This document shows positions 4,942-47,008 of a stretch of DNA of 64,000 bases, one piece after another. Below the pieces are notes generated by a model that saw only the letters and a list, made by a program, of their open reading frames with translations, ran no database searches and was not told where the DNA came from. Location of the stretch: contig JAGLUP010000002.1 of NCBI GenBank assembly GCA_023134715.1, positions 160,430 through 224,429 of the forward strand, read 5' to 3'. Position numbers and translations under genes: made by a program. This DNA is from Candidatus Parcubacteria bacterium. Lineage in GTDB: Bacteria; Patescibacteriota; Minisyncoccia; Minisyncoccales; JAGLUP01. Position 1 is the stretch's first letter. Each line of letters begins with the position of its first letter.

Positions 4942-6315
4942 ATGAAAAAATCTCATAAATCAATAATAGACCATATTCCCCTTTTTTTAAAACATTTGAA
5001 AAAGGAAGATTATTCTGGTCATACTGAAAAAAACTATAAACGTTATCTAAATAGATTTATATTGTGGCTTAAAAAAATAAAGAAAGAAACTCTTAAGCCA
5101 CACGAATTAACTGCTGACGATATTAAAAATTATAAATTTTATCTTTCTGTATCTAAATCTAAAAATGAAAAAACTCGCCTTTTAAAGCTTATTACTCAAA
5201 ACTACTATTTAATCGCCCTGAGAGCCATTTTGAGCTATTTTACAGCCAAAGACATAGTTTCGCTCCCAGCAGATAAAATAAAACTGCCGAAAAACGCTCA
5301 GGATGGGAAAACCATAAAATTTCTCAATTTAAACCAAGTTGAGCAACTTTTAATGATTCCTGACACTAAAATAAAAATCGGATTAAGAGACCGAGTTATT
5401 TTAGAACTTTTGATTTTTAATGGATTTAAACTGTCTAAACTCGTAAATTTAAACAGAAATGCAATTAAATCGCTTTCAAAAAGAAACATTGATTATGTTA
5501 AACAATATTTAAAATCTCGCAAAGATAAAAAAAATGCTCTACTTGTTCGTTATAGTGGTCGCAAAGATGCAGAAAGCCGTCTCACACCTCGCTCCATAGA
5601 AAGAATTATTAATAAATACGGAGAGAAAATCGGGCTTAACTTTCGGCTTACGCCTGAAATTTTACGTAAAAGTTATGCTCTTGGCCTATTAGAAGAACAA
5701 AAAAAAATAAAAATTTATAAGCCTCAAGCTCACGAAATTTCTTTTATTAAAAACTACGACATATCAATTCCTTTTCAAAAGAAAATAAAAAATGGCATAT
5801 CCCCTGCTTGGAATGTTGTTGAGTCTATTATTGAGGAAGAAATAAACTGGCTAAAAAACAATATTTCTGTTTTACCTGAAAGATATAAAAAAAACTTTTT
5901 ATTATTGAGCGATGCCCTAATTTTGCGAAAAATAGCAATTTTAATTGTAAACGGCAGGATAAGGGCTACTGAATTTAATTCTGAAAAAAATAATCTATGG
6001 AATAACTGTAGAAAAAAATCAAAACTTAATAAAATAAATCGGCATGGAAAAGAATGGCACAAAAAAATGATGAATGTGGTTTATGAATACTTTAAGCTTA
6101 AAAATTATAAAGTAGCCATAGAACCAACTCTAAATTACGGACGAGCAGATTTAGGAATTTACTCAAATTCAAAAAGAACTTCTCTAAAAGAAGTTCTTTA
6201 TATTGAAATAGGCACAGTATCCTTATATAAACTCTGGTATAATCTTTCATCAATGAAAAATGTCACTTTTCTAATTATTCCCTCTAAAAAATACGCAATA
6301 GAATTTAAAATTTAA
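4942..6315 (+). CDS. Degenerate tyrosine recombinase fused to nuclease-like domain
   Basis: Residues 1-110 resemble the SAM-like DNA-binding domain of phage integrases, and 125-250 the recombinase catalytic fold. The active site is eroded. The first Arg is Lys163 (GFKLSKL), the HxxR His is Glu239 (TPEILRKSY), and there is no GH motif or Tyr nucleophile. Residues 360-457 have a PD-(D/E)XK-like pattern: HGKEWH, then GRADLGIY with Asp403, then YIEIGT with Glu422. It is followed after 4 bp by an intact Xer gene. A DNA-binding or accessory role is inferred. Confidence 0.6.
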   Translation: MKKSHKSIIDHIPLFLKHLKKEDYSGHTEKNYKRYLNRFILWLKKIKKETLKPHELTADDIKNYKFYLSVSKSKNEKTRLLKLITQNYYLIALRAILSYFTAKDIVSLPADKIKLPKNAQDGKTIKFLNLNQVEQLLMIPDTKIKIGLRDRVILELLIFNGFKLSKLVNLNRNAIKSLSKRNIDYVKQYLKSRKDKKNALLVRYSGRKDAESRLTPRSIERIINKYGEKIGLNFRLTPEILRKSYALGLLEEQKKIKIYKPQAHEISFIKNYDISIPFQKKIKNGISPAWNVVESIIEEEINWLKNNISVLPERYKKNFLLLSDALILRKIAILIVNGRIRATEFNSEKNNLWNNCRKKSKLNKINRHGKEWHKKMMNVVYEYFKLKNYKVAIEPTLNYGRADLGIYSNSKRTSLKEVLYIEIGTVSLYKLWYNLSSMKNVTFLIIPSKKYAIEFKI

Positions 6316-6319
6316 TTAT

Positions 6320-7264
6320 ATGAAAAAAATACAACTTCCTGATTTAGATGATTTTCTTTTAGATCTTCAAGTTAATAATCTTTCCGAGAAAACAGTTTAT
6401 AGTTATGAACGAGATTTAGAAGTTTTTCAAAATTTTCTAAAAGAAATAAATATTGAATTTGATAATATTGATAAAAAAACAATTCTTAATTATAAGGCTT
6501 ATTTAGTTTCTCGAGACAGAAAAACAGCTAAATCTCAAAAAAGTAAAAAACGACTTAGTAGTTATTCTATAAATAAAATGTTATCTGCTATTCGTTCCTA
6601 TTTAAAATTTTTAATAGATATGGATTATAAGTCTCCCATATCTCCCAGCGAGATTAAATTAGTAAAAACCGAAAAAAAGCACCCTCGCGTTTCAGAGCTT
6701 GAAGAAATAATAAAATTAATTCAATTTCCCACGCAATTTGAAAAAAATAAGATTATTGCTTTGCGCAATCGAGCAGTGCTTGAAACTTTATTTTCTACTG
6801 GAATGAGAATTTCTGAAGTTATAAACTTAAAAAAAGAACAAATTGATAAAACAGGAAGAATCTTTATTATGGGCAAAGGCAAAAAAGAAAGATTCGTTTA
6901 TTTGACGCCGAGAGCACAAAAACATATTAAAAAATACTTAGAAGTTAGAGGTATAACAAGTTCTTCTTACCTATTTATTCCTTATAGAGGAAAAAATGTA
7001 AACTTAAAGGATAAAAAACTTTCTCCTAATTATCTAGAAGAAAAAGTTAAAAAATATCGTGAATTACTTGGATTAAATGTCCCTGTTTCTGTCCATGGTA
7101 TTCGCCATGCATTTGCAACATATTTAGCAGAAAGCGGAGCTAGCCCAGCTGCTATTCAAATATTATTAGGCCATGAATCTTTAGATACAACTACAAAATA
7201 TGTTCATGCTTCCGACCGTTATGCGCAAAAAATTCATCAAAAATTCCACCCTCTCAAGGAATAA
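6320..7264 (+). CDS. Xer-type tyrosine recombinase
   Basis: This 314-residue XerC/XerD-family recombinase has an N-terminal core-binding domain (residues 8-100) and a catalytic domain with all six residues. These are Arg163 (STGMRISEV), Lys in the GKGKKERF hairpin, His259 and Arg262 (VHGIRHAF), His285 (LLGHES) and Tyr294. It probably resolves chromosome dimers or integrates elements. Many reduced genomes use a single Xer. It lies 4 bp after the degenerate paralogue, suggesting joint expression. Confidence 0.88.
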   Translation: MKKIQLPDLDDFLLDLQVNNLSEKTVYSYERDLEVFQNFLKEINIEFDNIDKKTILNYKAYLVSRDRKTAKSQKSKKRLSSYSINKMLSAIRSYLKFLIDMDYKSPISPSEIKLVKTEKKHPRVSELEEIIKLIQFPTQFEKNKIIALRNRAVLETLFSTGMRISEVINLKKEQIDKTGRIFIMGKGKKERFVYLTPRAQKHIKKYLEVRGITSSSYLFIPYRGKNVNLKDKKLSPNYLEEKVKKYRELLGLNVPVSVHGIRHAFATYLAESGASPAAIQILLGHESLDTTTKYVHASDRYAQKIHQKFHPLKE

Positions 7265-46101: not shown

Positions 46102-46141
46102 GTATAACACATATACAACGATCGTTGTATATGTGTTATAC
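46102..46141. repeat. 40-bp perfect palindrome, copy 1
   Basis: GTATAACACATATACAACGA is followed directly by its exact reverse complement, with no spacer. It matches 46905-46944 except for A/C at one arm position and the compensating T/G in the other. A flanking ATTTAAxxAGAGAA word is also shared. It follows the terminator of the small gene 46233 on the minus strand. Confidence 0.95.
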
Positions 46142-46182
46142 TCTAAATTCTATAAACAAGCTCTATAAACAAGCCCTGTATA

Positions 46183-46214
46183 AAAAAATCTCTCTTAATT
46201 AAAAGAGAGTTTTT
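46183..46214 (-). terminator. Intrinsic terminator
   Basis: AAAAATCTCTCTT pairs with AAAGAGAGTTTTT around AATTA. On the minus strand the stem ends in ATTTTTTT. It terminates the small-gene pair 46407/46233. A near-identical hairpin is at 46978-47008. Confidence 0.85.
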
Positions 46215-46232
46215 GTTTGTTTTTTCAGCCGT

Positions 46233-46394
46233 TCAGCCCTTAGGAAAGGCTTGTTTGTGTAATTTTTCCTTCATATTCTTTACATCTTCCATTATTTTAT
46301 TTATGGCCGCTATCATCTCATTCATTTTATTTTCAATCTGAATATCTTTTTGCGATAGACCCTCATCAATAGATAATTCTTTAATTTTTTCCAT
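46233..46394 (-). CDS. 53-residue coiled-coil small protein
   Basis: It reads MEKIKELSIDEGLSQKDIQI and continues as a helix rich in Glu, Lys and Met. The SD GAGGTGA lies 6 bases before the ATG. It follows the 123-residue gene after 12 bp. No family known. Confidence 0.55.
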   Translation of the reverse strand: MEKIKELSIDEGLSQKDIQIENKMNEMIAAINKIMEDVKNMKEKLHKQAFPKG

Positions 46395-46406
46395 TCTTTT
46401 CACCTC

Positions 46407-46778
46407 TTAATATTTTCTTTTCTTTTCTATCAATACTGGAAGGCCATACTTTCCAGTGCCTACATATTTAATATACCATGTCTCGCCTTTTTTTATCTCT
46501 GGATGTAGTTCTTCAACTCTTACTCGCTCTCCATTTTTAAATACTATTTCTGTTTGCTCTTCTCTCTCCATAGAACTCCACCCGCCAGGGATATAAGGCA
46601 TAATTAAAACTGCTTCTACTTCTCCCTTTATTTCATTTTCAATTTGAAAATCTGCTATTATCGCTCTTATCCTCCTGCGTCTTTTCAATGAAAAATAGAG
46701 CAGAACAGCAACCGCCACAACTATTCCTGCTATAAAACCCTCATATCTTCCAAAATACTGCGCATATGTTGTATCCAT
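46407..46778 (-). CDS. Small membrane protein with cytoplasmic tail
   Basis: This 123-residue protein starts at the ATG at 46778 behind AGGTGATGTG; a GTG at 46784 lies in the SD and is unlikely. One TM helix at about residues 13-33 is followed by KRRRRIRAII, a positive-inside signal, and a beta-rich tail that could be an NfeD/OB-like domain (RVEELHPEIKKGETWYIKY). Function unknown. Confidence 0.6.
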   Translation of the reverse strand: MDTTYAQYFGRYEGFIAGIVVAVAVLLYFSLKRRRRIRAIIADFQIENEIKGEVEAVLIMPYIPGGWSSMEREEQTEIVFKNGERVRVEELHPEIKKGETWYIKYVGTGKYGLPVLIEKKRKY

Positions 46779-46838
46779 TTTCACATCACCTTTTTTATTT
46801 TTTATTTTTTAATTTGCTATTTCTTGCTTATAATATAT

Positions 46839-46866
46839 ATTATATTAAAATAGAACAAAAAGTCAA
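46839..46866 (-). promoter_or_regulatory. Promoter of small-gene pair
   Basis: TTGACT and TATAAT on the minus strand are 16 bp apart, about 60 bp before 46778 and 40 bp after palindrome copy 2. Confidence 0.8.
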
Positions 46867-46904
46867 CTAAAATAATTTCCTTTATTGACTTCTCTACTTA
46901 AATT

Positions 46905-46944
46905 GTATAACACATATACCACGATCGTGGTATATGTGTTATAC
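46905..46944. repeat. 40-bp perfect palindrome, copy 2
   Basis: GTATAACACATATACCACGA followed by its exact reverse complement. The arm base that differs from copy 1 is changed in both arms, keeping perfect symmetry. It lies between the terminator of gene 47007 and the promoter for the gene pair 46778/46394. Confidence 0.95.
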
Positions 46945-46977: not shown

Positions 46978-47008
46978 AAAAAATCTCTCTTTTATTAAGA
47001 GAGTTTTT
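46978..47008 (-). terminator. Intrinsic terminator
   Basis: AAAAATCTCTCTT/AAGAGAGTTTTT stem, T-run on the minus strand. It touches the stop codon of gene 47007-47219. Confidence 0.85.

Follow-up and report, generated by a model that had tools for sequence, protein, structure and literature searches.

Short dispersed palindromes that accompany a gene are known from the REP/RAYT system (TnpA-REP, Y1 HUH transposases), in which the members of one gene family each lie between palindromes of their own. Among mobile elements with a homologue of a Cas protein, casposons employ Cas1 as integrase. In small-genome bacteria, the Rickettsia palindromic elements (RPE), of about 105-150 bp, are repeats that enter protein genes (PMC2229807, PMC10969869); a 2007 review gives the spread of such short elements as an open question (PMC2229807). 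Here, we analyzed a pair of long palindromes from a Patescibacteria genome, and the pattern of their relatives points to a candidate miniature mobile element of a kind that seems not to have been described before.

The window (the whole 64-kb stretch of DNA analyzed) holds two palindromic elements (Table 1), which are its longest near-palindromes. The initial annotation had described both as exact palindromes of 20+20 bp with a spacer of 0, differing at one arm position with a compensating change in the other arm, and had placed each behind a near-identical terminator of a small-protein gene with flanks common to both; all of these points were confirmed. The two copies have A and C, respectively, at position 16 and T and G at position 25, and each terminator is a hairpin with a T-run that belongs to a small minus-strand ORF. 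We calculated that, at the 32.5% G+C of the window, a single perfect 20-bp arm match would be expected by chance in 64 kb with a probability of ~6e-7. The flanks of the two copies are 93% identical over 70 nt; beyond these lie the terminator and then a stretch of 35 nt with the start and RBS. Since the flanks, terminator and start/RBS stretch are common to both sites, they represent one local duplicated unit. The tandem small-protein genes of this unit were rejected as partners of the palindromes, as they have no family match and were not seen at the other copies. Elsewhere in the window (4942-7264), two adjacent ORFs (457 and 314 aa) were named tyrosine-recombinase-like from their translations, and the first extends into an additional region at its C-terminus; they are unlinked to the palindromes.

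Table 1. Positions and context of the palindromes and their neighboring features (window coordinates unless a contig, locus or genome is named)
Feature	Position	Strand	Remark
Palindromic element, copy 1, GTATAACACATATACAACGATCGTTGTATATGTGTTATAC	46102..46141	.	pair 16/25 is A/T
Palindromic element, copy 2, GTATAACACATATACCACGATCGTGGTATATGTGTTATAC	46905..46944	.	pair 16/25 is C/G
Centre of copy 1, family core ACGATCGT	46118..46125	.	(nearly) invariant in alignments A1 and A3
Terminator-like hairpin by copy 1	46190..46215	-	duplicated unit, outside element
Terminator-like hairpin by copy 2	46985..47008	-	near-identical to that by copy 1
Small ORF, 56 aa	46233..46403	-	3′ end toward copy 1; duplicated unit, outside element
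Small ORF, 73 aa	47007..47228	-	3′ end toward copy 2; start/RBS region common with 56-aa ORF
ORF between both copies, 125 aa	46407..46784	-	no confident family; not Cas2-like
Gene-bearing copy of the window genome	C9:116749-116788 and 117423-117462		palindromes around 185-aa gene
RAYT-flanking palindromes, locus L222	195-221, 1189-1235, 1944-1986		separate REP-like family
Genic copy, MurF-type (G043, G086, G078)			one site, in frame
Genic copy, MurC-type (G040, G086)			in frame
Genic copy, enolase (G078, G089, G100)			at N/C domain junction, in frame
Genic copies, RsmH (G100), CysS (G086), MnmA (G176)			in frame

A search of the assembly (761,603 bases, 12 contigs) showed that the 40-mer occurs 11 times in near-identical form, spread over five contigs. 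The concern that the repeat might be confined to contig joins of this assembly was removed by the whole-genome and order searches, in which the copies lay away from joins and were also found in relatives. Except at the window pair, the flanks of the 11 copies are unrelated, and similarity ends at the palindrome ends. The expectation of perfect palindromes behind terminators throughout failed: eight of the 11 copies have a C/T mismatch at pair 16/25, and the majority are not preceded by a terminator. The association with terminators is thus a property of the duplicated window unit, not of the palindrome family. The bare 15-mer half-site gave chance-level matches in collections of genome contigs and of viral contigs, none with a paired half-site. 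A parent transposon in which such repeats would form the single ends on either side of a larger gene was also considered and rejected, as the window genome has no clear isolated half-sites. On contig C9 of this genome (locus L010, 1560-1600), 85 bp from a 40-mer copy, lies a second perfect palindrome of other sequence (AAATAACAAATCAGGCCGATCGGCCTGATTTGTTATTT, centred on CCGATCGG), which is terminator-like or a diverged relative.

The C16/T25 state was also observed in one copy of a relative (G080, contig C4). Because a single substitution separates C/T from A/T and likewise from C/G, the two states of the window, the compensatory change between the two copies needs no selection. The simplest history is that the window pair represents two opposite one-step corrections of a quasi-palindrome rather than compensated mutations, presumably through hairpin-templated quasi-palindrome correction. 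Selection acting on the symmetry of just these two sites would be compatible with the main explanation developed below and could draw on the perfection of both window copies and on the double-sided changes in the wider family; in view of the C16/T25 copies here and in G080, and of the single change that separates each window state from them, we regard it as unlikely.

The window genome is the sole member of its family and genus in the genome set searched. In a first pattern search of the order, the window arms recurred in G080 (two copies) and G100 (one copy), in both with the centre CGGCCG in place of CGATCG. A covariance model built from 14 copies extended the family to 13 genomes, and a second model (R2), built from 20 diverse members, had matches in 58 of the 247 genomes available for the order (E <= 0.01) and, in a phylum-wide sample of 379 genomes, in 32 (E <= 0.001). 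Since R2 favors palindromes as such and gives only approximate E-values, the matches were read through; nearly all have the centre [A/G/C]CG(AT/GC)CG[T/C/G] and arms particular to each genome. The related palindromes are 36-40 bp long with the core ACG(AT/GC)CGT, and their arms vary between genomes yet stay complementary, as illustrated by CTGTGCCATAAATACTACGATCGTAGTATTTATGGCACAG beside TTGTGACAAAATTACTACGATCGTAGTAATTTTGTCACAA in G185 and by TCGTAGTAAATTTCCTACGATCGTAGGAAATTTACTACGA in G049. Arm length differs by one base per side among family members. In the 20-member alignment, 92.3% of cells are paired, 14 of 20 pairs show changes on both sides, and covariation is 0.471 compared with 0.176 after shuffling (0/500) and <= 0.148 in slid controls, the pairing and covariation figures leaning upward because some of the members had been recovered with a model that favors symmetry. 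Covariation is visible even between copies inside one genome. The earlier claim that symmetry is being kept agrees with the family as a whole, where compensatory changes are frequent and significant; in the window genome, where most copies retain the C16/T25 mismatch, symmetry is maintained less strictly.

In several genomes, palindrome pairs 600-840 bp apart enclose one gene, and the enclosed protein matches Pfam PF20803 (PaaX_M, a central Cas2-like domain) with E-values of 1e-15 to 6e-24 in seven cases. These proteins are ~180 aa long and consist of a winged helix and the Cas2-like (PaaX_M) domain. Their matches to TIGR01573 (cas2) are weaker than those to PF20803, with five of eight exceeding the 24.5-bit cut-off, and their best score with TIGR02277 (PaaX) is 41.8 bits, which is sub-threshold against the curated full-length cut-off of 264.55. 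A profile search of solved structures returned PaaX (PDB 8a39), Cas2 and VapD chains, all weakly. Nine columns are invariant among 21 aligned proteins (alignment A4), including the Asp of the FDIP motif (D122), which, from the Pfam and TIGR matches, we take to be the metal-binding Asp of Cas2. No relatives of the protein were found on phages, on plasmids or in IMG/VR.

The gene-bearing copy of the window genome encodes a 185-aa protein (MKIPLTDKFLWDLYSVF...); the gene starts 30 bp from the centre of one palindrome and stops 90 bp short of the centre of the other, and its neighbors are SdpI and a GDSL lipase. Three PF20803 genes were counted in this genome (on C9, on C7 and one further). The C7 gene (locus L392, G000 C7:62126-65362) has a different perfect palindrome, CAAATACTTTACCTGCGGCCGCAGGTAAAGTATTTG, ~155 bp upstream. 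The bracketed gene could not be detected from the window. Of the functions that the initial annotation had proposed (dimeric operator, RNA hairpin or recombinase target), the last comes nearest to our reading, and the impression of a functional-looking repeat was sound, but the Cas2-like partner was missed.

PF20803 genes are present in 97 of the 247 genomes of the order, with up to 13 genes per genome; the search for this family also gave matches in Thermus and Sulfolobus. We sought the core palindrome within 300 bp of 73 distinct Cas2-like genes with complete flanks. A CG..CG core palindrome was found at 51 of them and on both sides at 35, the C9 gene of the window genome included, whereas the control loci (29 rsmH and 12 RAYT loci, together 147 kb) had none. 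When flanks were scanned without specifying the core, 62 of 73 flank palindromes still carried it, and the 147-kb control gave four palindromes, none with the core. The core palindrome is absent at 22 of the 73 genes, several of which have perfect palindromes of other centres. At two loci (L453 and L424), Cas2-like genes are flanked by repeated identical perfect palindromes with a non-CG centre (GCTATAGC and GCCATGGC); the core is therefore not universal. At the level of genomes, 45 of the 58 palindrome-positive ones carry a Cas2-like gene (247 genomes; Fisher p 1.4e-11), and within-family permutation of the co-occurrence gave a mean of 33.5, with none of 20000 permutations as high as observed. 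The 13 palindrome-positive genomes that lack a PaaX_M gene include G080, which is 98% complete. Moreover, arm distance is correlated with protein distance, with a modest Mantel r of 0.31 (0/2000 permutations as high) that became 0.29 when same-genome pairs were excluded.

Away from any Cas2-like gene, 98 solo palindromes were classified by position: 48 lie between tandem genes, 10 between convergent and 10 between divergent genes, 24 inside ORFs of >= 90 aa, and 6 at edges. Many of the genic copies lie within conserved genes and in frame (Table 1). At the palindrome site, the RsmH loop is shorter in relatives; compared with relatives, the rsmH copy amounts to a net +9 aa and the MurF copies to ~+7 aa. 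The reuse of the same genic sites in different families may reflect common descent or target preference. Additionally, G079 and G081, two genomes of the same genus as G080, lack the copy that G080 has between rnpA and yidD, and the filled and empty sites differ by ~60 bp, not exactly 38-40. Taken with the +9 aa in RsmH and ~+7 aa in MurF, this difference indicates that insertion is not a clean +40 bp. Inspection by eye of the 11 window-genome copies, at which exact insertion points are not fixable, revealed no target-site duplication or constant target. Dispersal, in-frame genic copies and absence from sister genomes are together best read as mobility.

Other inserts and repeats were seen at some of these places. 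The RsmH loop of G089, G043 and G165 (loci L231, L239 and L256) carries other unusual in-frame inserts, comprising tandem GGGACAGGAGA repeats, what is possibly a decayed hairpin, and a CCCCGTTA...TAACGGGG hairpin, and it looks like an insertion-tolerant hot spot. A ~72-bp repeat (locus L214, ~1754-1830) is scattered over G080, G081 and G079 in dozens of copies; it also lies after yidD in G080 and is missing there in G079 and G081. This repeat is probably a REP/BIME of another system.

Overall, we consider it likely that the window palindromes represent a miniature mobile element in its solo form, the full form of which would consist of a palindrome, a winged-helix/Cas2-like (PaaX_M) gene and a second palindrome, with the encoded protein mobilizing the DNA. 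From sequence comparison, we infer that the protein binds, cleaves and moves the palindrome. In the putative mechanism, the protein would work as a symmetric dimer, its winged helix reading the variable palindrome arms and its Cas2-like domain, with the Cas2 aspartate kept, acting on the conserved ACG(AT/GC)CGT centre. The action of the dimer would copy or insert the palindrome at new places, and inserted copies would persist where harm is small, that is, in intergenic regions, 3′ of genes and in in-frame protein loops. Symmetry could be restored via hairpin-templated correction, selection for a dimer site, or both. We propose that arms and protein co-evolve, which would give each genome its own arm sequence.

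Alternatively, the winged-helix/Cas2-like protein could be a PaaX-like repressor, with the bracketing palindromes as its operators in autoregulation and the dispersed copies as its regulon. PaaX is the nearest named regulator (by the sub-threshold TIGR02277 match and PDB 8a39 in the profile search), long dyads fit dimers, and palindrome centres lie a median of 58 bp before the Cas2-like gene start, a plausible autoregulatory position. However, the second copy usually lies ~27 bp after the stop codon, and divergent intergenes hold just 10 of the classified solo copies, against the 48 tandem, 10 convergent and 24 genic ones. In-frame positions within enolase, MurF and RsmH, the copy missing from sister species, and an arm length that varies by one base per side also speak against operators, and we find this explanation quite improbable.

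Instead, it might be a different enzyme, whether Y1/RAYT or part of the host machinery, that moves the palindromes, with the Cas2-like gene as cargo between two copies. Some genomes have the palindromes without PaaX_M, and the window genome does have a RAYT-like Y1 gene, its only one (locus L222, G000 C6:73702-76926). That gene has palindromes of its own on its flanks, which are GC-rich, perfect and of odd length (GACCCACGGAGCTTAGCTCC-N-GGAGCTAAGCTCCGTGGGTC), and RAYT was rejected as the mobilizer because these differ from the 40-mer family. Furthermore, no CG..CG palindrome lies near any of 12 RAYT (Y1) loci from six genomes, and the arm sequence tracks the sequence of the Cas2-like protein, which leaves the cargo explanation very doubtful. 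Finally, a transcribed hairpin retained for its RNA fold, as an mRNA-stabilizing or processing signal, would suit the very stable predicted fold (z -8.15), the compensatory changes and the position behind terminators in the window, but is extremely improbable given that no Rfam family reaches its gathering score for the element, that copies occur in divergent intergenes and within reading frames, that one gene family is bracketed on both sides, and that the conserved part is a self-complementary centre, symmetric on both strands.

We therefore return to the mobile element with a Cas2-like gene as the preferred explanation. Its bolder form, in which the Cas2-like protein alone would mobilize palindromic DNA, yielding minimal elements throughout the phylum and solo palindromes that recode essential proteins, is in our judgment evenly balanced between true and false. 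If the Cas2-like protein moves DNA, it would represent a transposase-like class of Cas2-fold enzymes outside CRISPR and casposons. The phylum-wide family offers a candidate cognate protein, testable palindromes, and natural pairs of arm and protein for specificity swaps. It also suggests a possible function for stand-alone Cas2-like genes in bacteria with very small genomes, which are easily annotated as CRISPR Cas2, and the linkage between palindrome and Cas2-like gene bears on the origin of Cas2. A search of published, largely open-access papers returned none whose title or abstract describes palindromic repeats of Patescibacteria, a PaaX/Cas2-like protein or a Cas2-linked transposon of this kind, and the system is new as far as these papers go.

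Each known system shares part of this arrangement. MITEs and solo terminal inverted repeats of insertion sequences (IS) likewise copy the ends of an element that carries a gene and are not autonomous themselves, but here each end is a complete palindrome, and a known transposase is absent between the ends. Casposons also harbor a Cas protein homologue within a mobile element, whereas here just a Cas2-like domain lies between the ends. PaaX repressors and Cas2 resemble the bracketed proteins in the order of winged helix and Cas2-like domain and in the aspartate of the Cas2 FDI motif, which is invariant in A4. However, the proteins described here fall below PaaX in length and score, and they are multi-copy (up to 13 per genome) and palindrome-bracketed; a CRISPR Cas2 role is not implied. 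Similar to the palindromes of this study, RPE are found both between genes and in frame within conserved genes of small-genome bacteria, but our element is 36-40 bp long and tied to a Cas2-like gene, whereas the RPE sources, in their accessible text, name no mobilizing gene (PMC2229807, PMC10969869). With REP/RAYT, the system has in common that its palindromes are short and dispersed, that they bracket a single gene family to which they are matched, that they are specific to each genome, and that solo copies occur alongside in that genome. In contrast to REP/RAYT, the bracketed protein is a winged-helix/Cas2-like protein (PF20803) with no match to Y1 (PF01797), and the palindrome is full and of even length, with an ACG(AT/GC)CGT centre and no conserved foot tetranucleotide seen. 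By the features that define membership, the system is not REP/RAYT, not RPE and not full PaaX. Mobile palindromic repeats with a cognate gene are already known, and the new part is the Cas2-like cognate gene; by analogy, the layout is that of REP/RAYT with a non-homologous protein.
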